From an uncultured Oscillospiraceae bacterium (GTDB lineage Bacteria > Bacillota > Clostridia > Oscillospirales > Ruminococcaceae), in assembly GCA_949295465.1 (NCBI GenBank), contig CASFKY010000073.1, positions 1-32,586 of the forward strand: 32,586 nucleotides of DNA, given 5' to 3'. This document shows positions 29,306 to 32,586 of the stretch, piece by piece (position 1 is the stretch's first letter; each line of letters opens with the position of its first letter). The translations under genes and the position numbers were made by a program. The notes under the pieces are model-generated. The model saw nothing but the letters and a program-made list of their open reading frames with translations. It did no database searches and was not told where the DNA came from.

Positions 29306-30064
29306 CTATACCAGATGCTGCAGCTCGGTCATGTTTTCCCAGTATCGCTTGGGGCAGTTGGTCATGCGGCAGCGAGGATTTTCCCGGGCCTGGATGGTAA
29401 GGGTCTCATAAAACCGCTTCCAGGCCTGTTGCAGCCGGGCCTCCCCCTCCTCCACCGGGGGCAGATGGAACTCCCCCTCCATCTCCAGATAGGAGGCAGT
29501 GTGGTCCCGGTAGAGCAGCACCGCCCCGTGGGCGGCATCGCAGATCAGGAAGTTCTCCTCGGGAAACCGGGCGCAGAAATGTCCCCGCAGCAGGGGCAGC
29601 ACATAGTGCTTGGGGGTGATGCGGGCGGCCAGAAGGCCGTCGTATTCCTGAAAGCGGAGAAATCCCTTCAGAAGATGGGCCTCCCCGGTCACCGCCTTTT
29701 CCAGCGCCAGCACCGGGGCCACCGCCTCGTGGCCCAAAAACCAGGGGGCCCGCCGTCCCAGGGGGTAGGCAAAGCGCAGAAAGCGCAGCAGGGCCAGCTC
29801 CTTGCCCTCGCTGCCGTTCAAAAAGGCCAGGCTCACCAGCTCCCGGGCCCGGGGACCCAGCTTTTCGTCGATGCTCCTGTCCACCCGGTCGGCCTTTTCC
29901 GGGTCGGTGTGGATGAGCCGGCTCTCGTAGAGGGTGGGAGAAAACTCTTGGGCGGGGCAGATGGCAAAGGGTTCCTCCCGGCGGAAAAAGGCCTCAAACA
30001 CACAGCACAAAAAGCCCTGCCAGCTGGAATCGTACAGGTACACTACATCTGCCTGGCGATACAT
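29306..30064 (-). CDS. TIGR03915-type putative DNA metabolism protein
   Basis: A 252-residue protein of the family annotated as probable DNA repair/metabolism protein (TIGR03915, DUF4130-like). Recognisable parts are YLYDSSWQGFLCCVFEAFFRREEP at the start, LRFAYPLGRR, the central HYVLPLLRGHFCARFPEENFLICD and the closing CRMTNCPKRYWENMTEL. No activity is proven for the family. It is nearly always paired with the radical-SAM protein encoded just upstream; here the two genes overlap by 22 bases and the AGGAGG site lies inside the partner's last codons, so they are translationally coupled. Confidence 0.85.
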   Translation of the reverse strand: MYRQADVVYLYDSSWQGFLCCVFEAFFRREEPFAICPAQEFSPTLYESRLIHTDPEKADRVDRSIDEKLGPRARELVSLAFLNGSEGKELALLRFLRFAYPLGRRAPWFLGHEAVAPVLALEKAVTGEAHLLKGFLRFQEYDGLLAARITPKHYVLPLLRGHFCARFPEENFLICDAAHGAVLLYRDHTASYLEMEGEFHLPPVEEGEARLQQAWKRFYETLTIQARENPRCRMTNCPKRYWENMTELQHLV

Positions 30065-31383
30065 GCCACCGCCTCCTCCCGTATCTGGATTCCGGCCAGC
30101 CGGGGCGGCACCCCCTGCCCGGCCAGCTGCCGCACCTGAGGCGCCGCAAACAGGCTCAGCTGCTCACAGCCCTCGTTGAAGACTTCCGGGTCCAGCAGGG
30201 CCCGGGCCACCAGCTCCCGGCGAGGACTGCGGCTGCCGGAATAGCCCCGGCAGCACAAAAAGTACTGGGCCCGCTTGAGCACCACTCCGATCCGCTTCAG
30301 TTCCGGCAGGCCCAGGGCCCCGTTTTTCCGGGCGATCAGGATCCGGCGGGCGCTGCGGGGCCCGATGCCCGGCACCCGAAGCAGCTCCTCCTCCCCGGCC
30401 CGGTTCACATCCACCGGGAATCGGTCAAAATGGCGCAGGGCCCAGTGGCATTTGGGGTCCATATAGGGGTCAAAGTTGGGGCAGTCCTCGTCCAGGATCT
30501 CCTCGGCGGAAAAATGGTAGTAGCGGAGCATCCAGTCGGCCTGATAGAGCCGGTGTTCCCGCAAAAGAGGCGGCGGGGTGTACAGGGCCGGCAGCCGGCT
30601 GTCCTCCACCACCGGGATATAGGCCGAGAAAAACACCCGCCTGAGGGAGTATTTCCGATACAGTCCCTGGGTCAGGTGAAGGATCTGCCGGTCGCTCTCG
30701 GGGGTGGCCCCCACGATCATCTGGGTGCTCTGGCCGGCGGGGGCGAACCGGGGAGCGTGCCGGTAGAGGGCCAGCTCCCGCCGATTCTGGGCAGAGGAGG
30801 CAGCGATCTGCCCCATGGGCCGCAGGATGGCCGCGCGGCTCTTGTCCGGGGCCAGCAGGCTCAGGCTGGCCTCGCTGGGCAGCTCAATATTCACGCTGAG
30901 CCGGTCAGCCAGCAGGCCCAGCTGGCGCACCAGCTCCGGGCTGGAACCGGGGATGGCCTTGGCGTGGATATACCCCCGGAAACGGTATTCCTCCCGCAGC
31001 AGGGTGAGGGCCGAGATCATCTGCTCCATGGTGTAGTCGGGGCTCACCAGAACCGCGCTGGACAAAAACAGTCCCTCGATATAGTTGCGCCGGTAAAACT
31101 GGATGGTGAGCTCGGCCAGCTCCCGGGGGGTGAAGGCGGCCCGGGGCAGGTCGTTGGAGCGCCGGTTCACGCAGTATCGGCAGTCGTAGGCACAGATGTT
31201 GGTGTAGAGCACCTTCAGCAGGGAGACACACCGCCCGTCCGCCGTGAAGGTGTGGCAGCAGCCCGGCGCCTGACAATTGCCGATGGCCCCGGCCTGGCCG
31301 CCCCGATCGCTGCCGCTGGAGGTACAGGCCACGTCGTACTTGGCGCTGTCGGCCAGAATGGCCAGTTTTTCCTCCAGTTCCAC
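30043..31383 (-). CDS. TIGR03916-type radical-SAM DNA modification/repair protein
   Basis: A 446-residue radical-SAM enzyme. CxxxCxxC is present as Cys64-x3-Cys68-x2-Cys71 (CAYDCRYC), preceded by extra Cys at 20, 37, 42, 43 and 52 that could hold a second cluster. A C-terminal helix-hairpin-helix, LLRVPGIGPRSARRIL, suggests DNA binding. The family is annotated as putative DNA modification/repair, without a proven reaction. The GTG at 31383 fits the usual N-terminus (ELEEKLAILADSAKYDVACTSSG) and has a GGGGGTGG site; the open frame upstream is not conserved-looking. The partner gene overlaps its 3' end. A terminator lies just upstream. Confidence 0.87.
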   Translation of the reverse strand: MELEEKLAILADSAKYDVACTSSGSDRGGQAGAIGNCQAPGCCHTFTADGRCVSLLKVLYTNICAYDCRYCVNRRSNDLPRAAFTPRELAELTIQFYRRNYIEGLFLSSAVLVSPDYTMEQMISALTLLREEYRFRGYIHAKAIPGSSPELVRQLGLLADRLSVNIELPSEASLSLLAPDKSRAAILRPMGQIAASSAQNRRELALYRHAPRFAPAGQSTQMIVGATPESDRQILHLTQGLYRKYSLRRVFFSAYIPVVEDSRLPALYTPPPLLREHRLYQADWMLRYYHFSAEEILDEDCPNFDPYMDPKCHWALRHFDRFPVDVNRAGEEELLRVPGIGPRSARRILIARKNGALGLPELKRIGVVLKRAQYFLCCRGYSGSRSPRRELVARALLDPEVFNEGCEQLSLFAAPQVRQLAGQGVPPRLAGIQIREEAVACIARQM

Positions 31384-31427: not shown

Positions 31428-31466
31428 AAAAAAGACGGCCTTTGGGCCCAGAACGGCCCAAAAGCC
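31428..31466 (-). terminator. Terminator of the S24 repressor gene
   Basis: On the - strand a 12-bp stem (one G-U pair, loop GTTCTG) is followed by GTCTTTTTT. It separates the repressor from the radical-SAM gene, for which I see no clear promoter in the remaining 45 bases, so some read-through is possible. Confidence 0.75.
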
Positions 31467-31533
31467 GCCCAAAGGACAAAAAGTCCGCCTAATGGGACGA
31501 CTCCCCCGCTATACTTTCAGATAGAGGGCGGGC

Positions 31534-32139
31534 TTACCACTGGCTGACGGTTTTGACCACCTTGCCCACCACATGCAGGTGCTCCAGTTCCTCGCCGCTG
31601 AGCACCAGTTCCTCATATTCCGGGTTGAAGGGCTGCAATACCACGCTGCTGCCCCGCACCAGGTATCGCTTGAGGGTACCCTCTCCTTCCCCGTAGATCA
31701 GAACCCCCAGATCGCCGCTGTCCAGGGTGGGCTGCTTGTGCACCAGGGCCAGGTCCCCCTCCCGGATGCGGGGCTCCATGCTGTCCCCCTTCACCACCAG
31801 GTAAAAGTAGGATTCCGGGTCCTTGACGCTGGCCAGCTCGGTGCCGTAGTCCTCCTCATAGGCCAGGGCCCCGTAGCCCGCCCGCACAGTGCCCACCACC
31901 GGGATGCCGGTCTGGGCATAGGGCAGCTGAAAGGAGGTGAGTGCGGGCGATTTGCCCAGCAAATCGTCGGTGCTCACCCCCAGCAGCCGGGCAAGGGCGG
32001 CGAGGGTATCCGGCCCGGGAGAGGATTTCCCGCTCTCCCACTTGCCCACGGCCTGTTGGGAGACCCCCATCCGGGCGCTGAGCTGGGCCTGGCTGAGGCC
32101 GGCGGCCTTGCGAAGCTCTTTGAGACGGTCCTTGAACAT
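31534..32139 (-). CDS. HTH-S24 self-cleaving repressor (LexA/CI-like)
   Basis: A 201-residue two-domain repressor. An XRE-type HTH (about 4-62; LSQAQLSARMGVSQQAVGKWESGK) binds DNA. The C-terminal S24 domain has Ser120 in VVKGDSMEPRIREGDLALV and Lys157 in EGTLKRY, the catalytic dyad, and an Ala87-Gly88 cleavage site in TVRAGYG. Such proteins cut themselves when bound to RecA filaments after DNA damage. The HTH is of the phage-repressor kind, not the LexA winged helix, so this is not the standard LexA. The ATG at 32139 has GGAG upstream. Four matching boxes lie in the adjacent divergent gap. Confidence 0.93.
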   Translation of the reverse strand: MFKDRLKELRKAAGLSQAQLSARMGVSQQAVGKWESGKSSPGPDTLAALARLLGVSTDDLLGKSPALTSFQLPYAQTGIPVVGTVRAGYGALAYEEDYGTELASVKDPESYFYLVVKGDSMEPRIREGDLALVHKQPTLDSGDLGVLIYGEGEGTLKRYLVRGSSVVLQPFNPEYEELVLSGEELEHLHVVGKVVKTVSQW

Positions 32140-32196
32140 AATCCATACGCTCCGTTTCTGGCGCCGGGCCCAGGGCCCGGCAGTCCTGATGATTTT

Positions 32197-32225
32197 ATAA
32201 TACAACAATAGGTGGTAAAAGTAAA
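32197..32225 (-). promoter_or_regulatory. Promoter of the S24 repressor gene
   Basis: On the - strand TTTACT (32220-32225) and TATTAT (32197-32202) have a 17-base spacer, which holds one of the ACAAC boxes (32202-32216), consistent with autorepression. Confidence 0.6.
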
Positions 32226-32309
32226 GAAGAAATCACAACAAAAAGTTGTTAAAATACCATTGACAACAACTAAATGTTGTAATATACTCAAAATACAACA
32301 AAAGGTTGT
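32202..32309. repeat. Four ACAAC-N5-GTTGT operator boxes
   Basis: Boxes at 32202-32216 (right half GTGGT), 32235-32249, 32266-32280 and 32295-32309. Three have perfect 5-bp arms with a 5-base A-rich centre. Centres are 33, 31 and 29 bases apart, about three helical turns, suited to cooperative binding on one face by the S24 repressor. Confidence 0.8.
32260..32288 (+). promoter_or_regulatory. Strong promoter for the right-end gene
   Basis: Perfect TTGACA (32260-32265) and TATACT (32283-32288) with a 17-base spacer. The box at 32266-32280 fills the spacer and the box at 32295-32309 covers the start of transcription, so it should be tightly repressed. Confidence 0.8.
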
Positions 32310-32357
32310 TGCATTCGACAGAGTTCACTTCTGAGAGTACACAGGAGGGGTTCAGAT

Positions 32358-32586
32358 ATGAAAAAAATGGCGGCGGGTCTGGAACGGTTTCTGGCGCTGG
32401 GCTGCGCCCTGGCGGCACTCTTGAGCCTGGGCAGCCTGTTTGAGGGGGGCAGCCTGTTTGAGGGGGGCAGCCTGGCGGCCCTGGGGCTGGCGGCGGCTTT
32501 GATGGGGGCGGCCCGGGCCCTTTCCCTTCTGGCCGAGCGCAGTGAGCGGGCGGCCCTGCGGGCCCGCCGTCGCCGTCAGCGCAGCG
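32358..32586 (+). CDS. Small membrane protein, 5' part, under S24 control
   Basis: An ATG at 32358 follows ACAGGAGGGG by seven bases. The 76 visible codons encode a short basic start, a long hydrophobic stretch that may hold two membrane segments (about residues 8-25 and 39-58), and an Arg-rich end; the gene runs off the window. Residues 25-36 are a duplicated GSLFEG unit from an 18-bp DNA repeat. I recognise no family. Its position behind a strong repressed promoter suggests a damage-induced product, by analogy with the division inhibitor YneA beside lexA in Bacillus, but there is no sequence similarity to support that. Confidence 0.6.
   Translation, partial: MKKMAAGLERFLALGCALAALLSLGSLFEGGSLFEGGSLAALGLAAALMGAARALSLLAERSERAALRARRRRQRS
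32430..32465 (+). repeat. 18-bp tandem repeat inside the right-end gene
   Basis: GGCAGCCTGTTTGAGGGG occurs twice head to tail, plus nine bases of a third copy. The unit keeps the reading frame and adds GSLFEG each time. Confidence 0.85.

Follow-up and report, generated by a model that had tools for sequence, protein, structure and literature searches.

A candidate SOS repressor with its own operator in a LexA-less lineage of Ruminococcaceae

What does a phage-like repressor control when it lies in a bacterial chromosome beside putative repair genes? This question is raised by the right end of the window, the whole 32,586-nucleotide stretch of DNA that we analyzed, which is all of contig C73 from the 2.15 Mb, 84% complete genome of an uncultured Oscillospiraceae bacterium. 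Here, the gene for a helix-turn-helix (HTH)/S24 repressor, which we term R, lies on the minus strand and diverges from an open reading frame (ORF) for a small membrane protein on the plus strand, which runs into the contig end. We propose that R is quite probably the DNA-damage (SOS) repressor of a lineage that lacks LexA, a non-canonical LexA that would control this local unit and, in sister genera, recA. The lineage consists of Faecalibacterium, Gemmiger, Fournierella, Ruthenibacterium, Anaerofilum, Pygmaiobacter and relatives (Ruminococcaceae/Oscillospiraceae); Faecalibacterium and Gemmiger include common gut commensals. On the evidence of sequence, the reading we favour is that this major gut lineage independently evolved a non-canonical LexA, R, together with a new box. 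The class as such is already known from Bacteroidetes (PMC8565304) and from FddR (PMC13148647); what is new is the box and the lineage. Among open-access papers, searched by title, we found no published account of the SOS system of Faecalibacterium or Gemmiger, and no open-access paper on a LexA 'SOS box' in Ruminococcaceae was found. In what follows, the own genus is that of the window, represented by the own genome (G000) and a congeneric one (G012).

The repressor, its operators and the two promoters

The locus holds the following features.

31534..32139, minus strand: R, gene for a self-cleaving-type repressor of 201 amino acids (aa), HTH_3 plus Peptidase_S24 (translation, Pfam, PHROG)
31669..31671, minus strand: codon of Lys157, predicted catalytic lysine, invariant
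31780..31782, minus strand: codon of Ser120, predicted catalytic serine, invariant and within the S24 match
31876..31881, minus strand: codons of Ala87-Gly88, predicted self-cleavage site, invariant in 28 orthologues
31960..32124, minus strand: CI/434-type HTH of R, residues 6-60, with Q28, Q29 and K33 invariant in 28 orthologues
32197..32225, minus strand: sigma-70-type promoter of R, TTTACT-17-TATTAT, 9/12 consensus bases
32202..32216, no strand: operator box 1, ACAACAATAGGTGGT, one mismatch, the right half reading GTGGT, inside the spacer of the repressor promoter (pattern match)
32235..32249, no strand: operator box 2, exact, between both promoters (pattern match and shuffles)
32260..32288, plus strand: sigma-70-type promoter of the membrane-protein gene, TTGACA-17-TATACT, 11/12 consensus bases
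32266..32280, no strand: operator box 3, exact, inside the spacer of the membrane-protein promoter (pattern match and shuffles)
32295..32309, no strand: operator box 4, exact, across the expected plus-strand start site, itself inferred (pattern match and shuffles)
32358..32586, plus strand: gene for the small membrane protein, truncated at the contig end, with an AGGAGG site ahead of its ATG; the product has two hydrophobic segments and a basic tail

R combines a CI-type N-terminal HTH with an S24 domain, the domain architecture of a non-canonical LexA, and matches Pfam PF01381 (HTH_3) and PF00717 (Peptidase_S24), both above cut-off, as well as PHROG phrog_4 (transcriptional repressor, 1.7e-49). 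The DNA-binding domain of canonical LexA (PF01726) gave no match in R at E<=0.1, and the LexA model TIGR00498 reached 65.5 bits against a cut-off of 110.95, on the S24 half only, so that R fails as a canonical LexA. The cleavage residues of a non-canonical LexA, an Ala-Gly site and a Ser/Lys dyad, are intact, and an alignment of 28 orthologues showed Ala87-Gly88, Ser120 and Lys157, together with Gln28, Gln29 and Lys33 of the recognition helix, to be invariant. These residues support the original prediction of a self-cleaving repressor. An AlphaFold model of R (mean pLDDT 80.7, pTM 0.55) had LexA and lambda CI as its best folds, the match being good over the S24 half (target TM about 0.75) and loose over the whole chain (TM about 0.5).

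The HTH is phage-repressor-like, as had been anticipated: it is of the CI type, and the closest solved DNA-binding domains are 434-type, which align with it number for number around Gln28-Gln29. The 434 repressor uses these glutamines to read ACAA half-sites, and the ACAAC half-sites at this locus therefore fit the HTH of R; no open-access paper on the 434 repressor contacts was found. The two proteins differ at residue 33, which is Lys in R and Gln in 434, and the 434 site is 14 bp long, compared with 15 bp here. That R was domesticated from a phage is plausible from its HTH but unproven. Among phage-labelled records, only MT839076.1 is more than 60% identical to R (63%), with the next best listed at 38% and all 845 others below 60%. 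In this GenBank 'Bacteriophage sp.' record (L222), R lies beside radical SAM and TIGR03915 genes, and because these genes adjoin R there, we take the record to be a fragment of bacterial chromosome.

The gap between R and the membrane-protein gene contains the pattern ACAAC-N5-GTTGT three times exactly and once with a single mismatch. Exact boxes are expected in the window by chance at a mean of 0.01, and none of 100 dinucleotide shuffles gave three. The locus had been described as having four operators of identical pattern, which is right for three and only nearly so for box 1. Their spacing is near-constant, as described: successive starts are separated by 33, 31 and 29 bp, in each case roughly three turns of the helix. 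One box also fills each 17-bp promoter spacer, in agreement with the same description: on the plus strand (TTGACA at 32260-32265, TATACT at 32283-32288) box 3 stands directly 3' of the -35, and on the minus strand (TTTACT at 32225-32220, TATTAT at 32202-32197) box 1 has one base in common with the -10. Box 4 begins 7 nt past the plus-strand -10 and therefore spans the expected start site, an inferred position where a further box had been placed. The boxes are indeed unlike the Gram-positive LexA site, since none of the seven GAAC-N4-GTTC sites within one mismatch in the window lies in this gap.

Whether the boxes are absent upstream of orthologues was a test set beforehand, and we found that they are kept. 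Orthologues came from a scan of named genomes, from which the best 80 of 372 relatives were used; these belong to Faecalibacterium, Gemmiger, Subdoligranulum, Fournierella, Ruthenibacterium, Anaerofilum and Pygmaiobacter, and to members of Oscillospiraceae, Ruminococcaceae and Clostridia without a genus name. With one locus left out as too short (L187), the comparison covered 80 loci, 79 from the scan plus the window. An exact box lies within 400 nt upstream of R in 66 of the 80 and a box within one mismatch in 78, compared with 0.025% and 1.1%, respectively, in shuffled sequence. The two loci without an upstream box are L203 and L147, in the latter of which an insertion separates R from the boxes. 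By a loose consensus test without shuffle control, a box occupies the spacer of the plus-strand promoter in 61/80 loci and that of the minus-strand promoter in 56/80. As a separate observation, an IS110-type transposase gene, recognized by eye from its sequence, lies between R and the boxes in L052 and L147, both from one Gemmiger genome.

These features suggest a simple circuit. A dimer of R would bind ACAAC-N5-GTTGT, and the boxes, which face roughly the same side of the helix, would cover both divergent promoters and keep R and the membrane protein low. Upon damage, RecA filaments would trigger cleavage of R at the Ala87-Gly88 bond. This would free both promoters for a short burst of the membrane protein, whose C-terminal Ala-Ala (AA) would mark it for degradation of the ClpXP type. 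By analogy with SosA and YneA, this protein would most likely delay division or alter the envelope during repair. Most sister genera have recA under the box as well, and in a patchy way also uvrB, a UmuC-like polymerase gene, radA and a radical SAM gene; in the own genus, where recA is outside it, the local unit is left.

The distribution of LexA and the box before recA

Canonical LexA is missing where R occurs. We sampled 197 genomes of the family, 29 of which hold a close R (at least 240 bits). None of the 29 has the LexA DNA-binding domain (PF01726 at E<=1e-6), which is present in 115 of the remaining 168 genomes (Fisher test, 3e-13, for genomes that are related and so not independent). Since the 29 R genomes are related, the loss of LexA was probably one event and not 29. 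Weaker PF01726 matches occur in nine of the 29, three of them at the Pfam cut-off, and none of the 29 has a full-length TIGR00498 match over the cut-off. Canonical LexA is thus absent from the clade, with the caveats that the own genome is incomplete and that two genomes, G012 and G136, encode sub-cut-off proteins, which are taken up below. In an order-wide sample, whose number of genomes from other families is not stated, close orthologues of R appeared in four genomes only, all of the own family, which points weakly to confinement.

The 330 nt upstream of recA were compared between 28 R genomes (27 of the 29, plus G156) and 24 LexA-bearing controls; no recA match was obtained in the R genomes G024 and G047 or in the control G009. 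We found the R box before recA in 18 of the 28 R genomes, exactly in 16 and with one mismatch in two, and in 0/24 of the LexA genomes. GAAC-N4-GTTC within one mismatch, in turn, precedes recA in 12/24 LexA genomes versus 2/28 R genomes. In 12 of the 16 box-bearing recA promoters shown (eight genera), the box stops 18 or 19 nt short of the -10. In the remaining four, from g101 and g79, it comes after a -10-like hexamer, and these boxes may therefore have a separate origin.

Exact boxes also precede other repair genes. Away from the R locus, 40 stretches with exact boxes were fetched, a part of all listed sites, and 15 of these boxes lie before recA, four before uvrB, and one each before radA, a radical SAM gene and a UmuC-like polymerase gene. 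For uvrB, we examined 20 R genomes, four of them unreadable by motif, and found the box in 5 of the 16 readable ones (four exact, one with one mismatch), a count that has no control, since all four LexA controls were unreadable. With UmuC-like polymerase genes added (2/10), the clade carries the box before recA and other SOS genes. The genome search that the original prediction had proposed for defining the regulon returned a local unit only in the own genome, and recA with repair genes in sister genera. Together, the lack of canonical LexA where R occurs and the presence of the same box before recA and repair genes of sister genera make R look like a replacement of LexA. The box also gives a direct list of candidate genes for the damage regulon.

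In Bacteroidetes, a non-canonical LexA with a CI-type N-terminal domain and an S24 domain does the job of LexA and has an N5-spaced palindrome (PMC8565304). R is like these proteins in being a CI-type/S24 repressor with an N5 palindrome of its own and boxes before its own and other SOS genes; it differs in the palindrome itself, ACAAC-N5-GTTGT, in its hosts and in the divergent membrane gene, the two systems having been set side by side at the level of their descriptions. HdiR of Streptococcaceae, which controls itself and umuC and, in one species, cinA-recA, is likewise a CI-type S24 regulator of a LexA-less group (PMC8565304). This likeness is drawn from the description of HdiR, which is said there to cluster with Streptococcus phage repressors.

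The divergent membrane protein

The plus-strand ORF has 76 codons open to the contig end, and its continuation, left as a point to check, can be read from the counterpart in G012, a full-length protein of 97 aa. At 69 of 85 loci (64 of the 80 named), R is flanked by a divergent ORF that starts with ATG behind a good ribosome site, as found with an ORF picker that favoured hydrophobic ORFs and for which the C-terminus was not a criterion. These proteins are 65-106 aa long (median 89), with two hydrophobic segments in 62/69 and one in 7/69, and 67/69 have an excess of basic residues. A model built from 20 members recovered, at E<=0.001, 40 of the 49 members held out and not one of the 987 decoy ORFs, which shows a family and not independence, because the members are related. 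The C-terminus is AA in 48 of the 68 complete proteins compared with 13/987 decoys, and the final residue is Ala in 62/68 compared with 82/987. The terminal AA is possibly a degradation signal. The fragment in the window matched no Pfam, NCBIfam or PHROG family at E<=0.1. Inside the window gene, an 18-bp in-frame tandem repeat of 2.6 copies spans 32429-32474; the congeneric protein has one copy of the motif.

The arrangement resembles the lexA-sosA and lexA-yneA pairs, in which a repressor adjoins a small membrane protein under its control, sosA being divergent from lexA (PMC6851548). SosA with a trimmed C-terminus accumulated (PMC6851548). The division inhibitors SosA and YneA have a single membrane helix, with the C-terminus of SosA outside (PMC6851548), whereas the proteins described here mostly have two predicted segments, a basic tail and a terminal AA; the match to the window protein is in position and membrane character only. 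The new small-protein family is a candidate checkpoint.

Damage-induced membrane peptides of the toxin or pore kind also exist, TisB being one example. The membrane protein could be a toxin, a holin-like pore or a persistence peptide and not a division checkpoint, an alternative that touches the effector only, is compatible with R as a SOS repressor, and is one that we take seriously without thinking it probable. Two hydrophobic segments, the basic excess and the terminal AA, in the proportions given above, would suit such a peptide, while the length range, the occurrence of a single family across genera and the location beside the repressor, which matches SosA/YneA (PMC6851548), would sit better with a checkpoint.

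Counter-evidence, possible intermediate genomes and neighbouring genes

Several observations weigh against R as a replacement of LexA. No box within one mismatch precedes recA in 9 of the 27 close-orthologue genomes with recA. In the own genus, neither G000 nor G012 has a box before recA, where only TTTGT is left at the right half-site and may simply be part of the -35; the Y-family polymerase gene readable in G000 has no box either, and the exact box occurs in both genomes at this locus only. A wide regulon was not found in the own genome, which has 28 sites within one mismatch, four of them here and the other 24 counted without gene assignment, versus 96 for a reversed control pattern. In the wider clade, few UmuC-like polymerase genes have the box (ten were read; another match lacked a locus and one more was fragmented), and no box was found at any of 18 dinB loci, two more on short stretches having been dropped. 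Of the 40 fetched stretches, 16 lie inside ORFs or near genes not recognized as repair genes, and two precede prophage-type S24 repressors. Exact boxes in 24 R genomes total 83, versus 74 for the reversed pattern, and since these totals barely differ, the signal lies in the positions of the boxes and not in their number. A terminator-like hairpin downstream of R may also limit read-through from R into the radical SAM gene.

To this list belong several observations on LexA itself. As many as 53 of the 168 other genomes have neither a strong LexA domain nor a close R, so that LexA absence alone is not special. G141 has a TIGR00498 match over the cut-off, on the S24 half only. In G012 and G136 there is, in addition, one full-length S24 protein each, below the TIGR00498 cut-off, in which an IclR-like winged helix forms the HTH and Cys-Gly stands in place of the Ala-Gly of R. 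This protein could act as a further regulator of the damage response.

L354, 3155-3805: winged-helix S24 regulator in G012
L355, 3182-3880: winged-helix S24 regulator in G136

Upstream of these two genes, with one mismatch allowed, we found no box of either the R or the LexA type. The other strong S24 match of the own genome, on contig C53, has a DicA-like HTH. For the own genus, the suggestion of a separate damage-responsive module fits, because recA (G000 and G012) and the polymerase gene of G000 have no box; in sister genera, R would be a replacement of LexA and not a module beside it. The local-only unit of the own genus is probably a reduced state.

A different explanation would make R only a local switch retained from a mobile element, with SOS genes unregulated or under another S24 protein, which we consider improbable. 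It would account for the single locus of exact boxes in the own genus, the extra winged-helix S24 protein of G012 and G136 and the phrog_4 match of R, and it has a precedent in the small core network of FddR of Francisella (PMC13148647). Like R as read here, FddR is described as a co-opted phage repressor, autoregulated, with a divergent gene of unassigned function and a small regulon; its motif, however, is GTG-N11-CAC and canonical SOS genes are uninduced (PMC13148647), whereas recA and other genes are boxed in the sister genera of the window. A purely local switch fits poorly with the exact box before recA in 16/28 R genomes, where its distance to the -10 is mostly constant, with the boxes before uvrB, UmuC-like polymerase, radA and radical SAM genes, and with the finding that 19 of the 21 loci compared have a repair-type radical SAM gene close to R. 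That the circuit is as described and answers a trigger other than RecA (heat, a peptide or another signal), with no damage response, is very unlikely, given cleavage determinants that are invariant in 28 orthologues and sister-genus targets that are recA, uvrB and a mutagenic-type polymerase, even if a LexA-like regulator outside the RecA paradigm, IrvR, is reported (PMC7101444).

R as a replacement of LexA can also be followed into genomes that hold both repressors. G064, G073 and G162 carry a full canonical LexA over the cut-off and an R at 51-56% identity. The R genes of G064 and G073 have their own exact box; for G162, only 22 nt upstream of R are available, and no exact box occurs in the available genome sequence. 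None of the three has an R box before recA, which is preceded by a LexA-like box within one mismatch in G073 and G162 and within two in G064. G156, from the genus of G064, has R with an exact box and no LexA over the cut-off, and its recA has neither an R nor a LexA box within one mismatch. In a tree of RecA and R, these four genomes fall outside the LexA-less clade, the first branches of which, g101 and g75, carry the recA box; several deep splits in the clade are weakly supported (12-79). The own genus and G052 are nested inside it and their recA has no box. The own genus has likely lost the box, although this is unproven, and on the tree, four losses or several gains of the recA box cost about equal.

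The three genomes with both LexA and R are possibly a hand-over stage. Published models allow another repressor to retake the SOS regulon after LexA loss (PMC8565304, PMC13148647). Our joint reading is that the SOS regulon has been passing from LexA to a captured phage-type repressor, with intermediates still alive, and that the divergent gene represents a damage-checkpoint family not described before, of two-helix membrane proteins with the terminal AA as a built-in degradation tag; we offer it tentatively, being almost evenly divided on it and inclined slightly to doubt. The stages would be LexA plus R, with R boxed at its own divergent unit and recA unboxed, then R alone with recA boxed, and lastly a regulon shrunk to the local unit, as in the window. 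For models of regulon retaking, a side-by-side comparison is possible among genomes that have both LexA and R, those in which R is accompanied by a boxed recA, and those in which R has only the local unit.

Two putative repair genes and the hairpin lie downstream of R.

29306..30064, minus strand: TIGR03915 family putative DNA repair protein
30043..31383, minus strand: putative DNA modification/repair radical SAM protein, TIGR03916, start codon inferred from relatives
31433..31470, minus strand: terminator-like hairpin between R and the radical SAM gene

The radical SAM gene is downstream of R in 17 of the 19 loci and downstream of the small gene in two, with another gene intervening between it and R in some of the 17. 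In G182, the radical SAM gene and R are on different contigs, and the gene carries its own exact box and a one-mismatch box. Three gene arrangements thus bring the uncharacterized TIGR03916/TIGR03915 pair close to, or under, what is likely a damage repressor. A prophage or integrative and conjugative element at this locus was considered and judged unlikely from the recurrence of the radical SAM gene beside R, no scan for phage genes having been made in the flanks.

Exact R boxes were also seen upstream of prophage-type S24 repressor genes in three relatives (L083, L322 and L109), and such elements may listen to the host switch. Lastly, pairs of exact boxes occur away from R, 30 bp apart near a short ORF (L081) and 41 bp apart near a recombinase-like ORF recognized by eye (L094).
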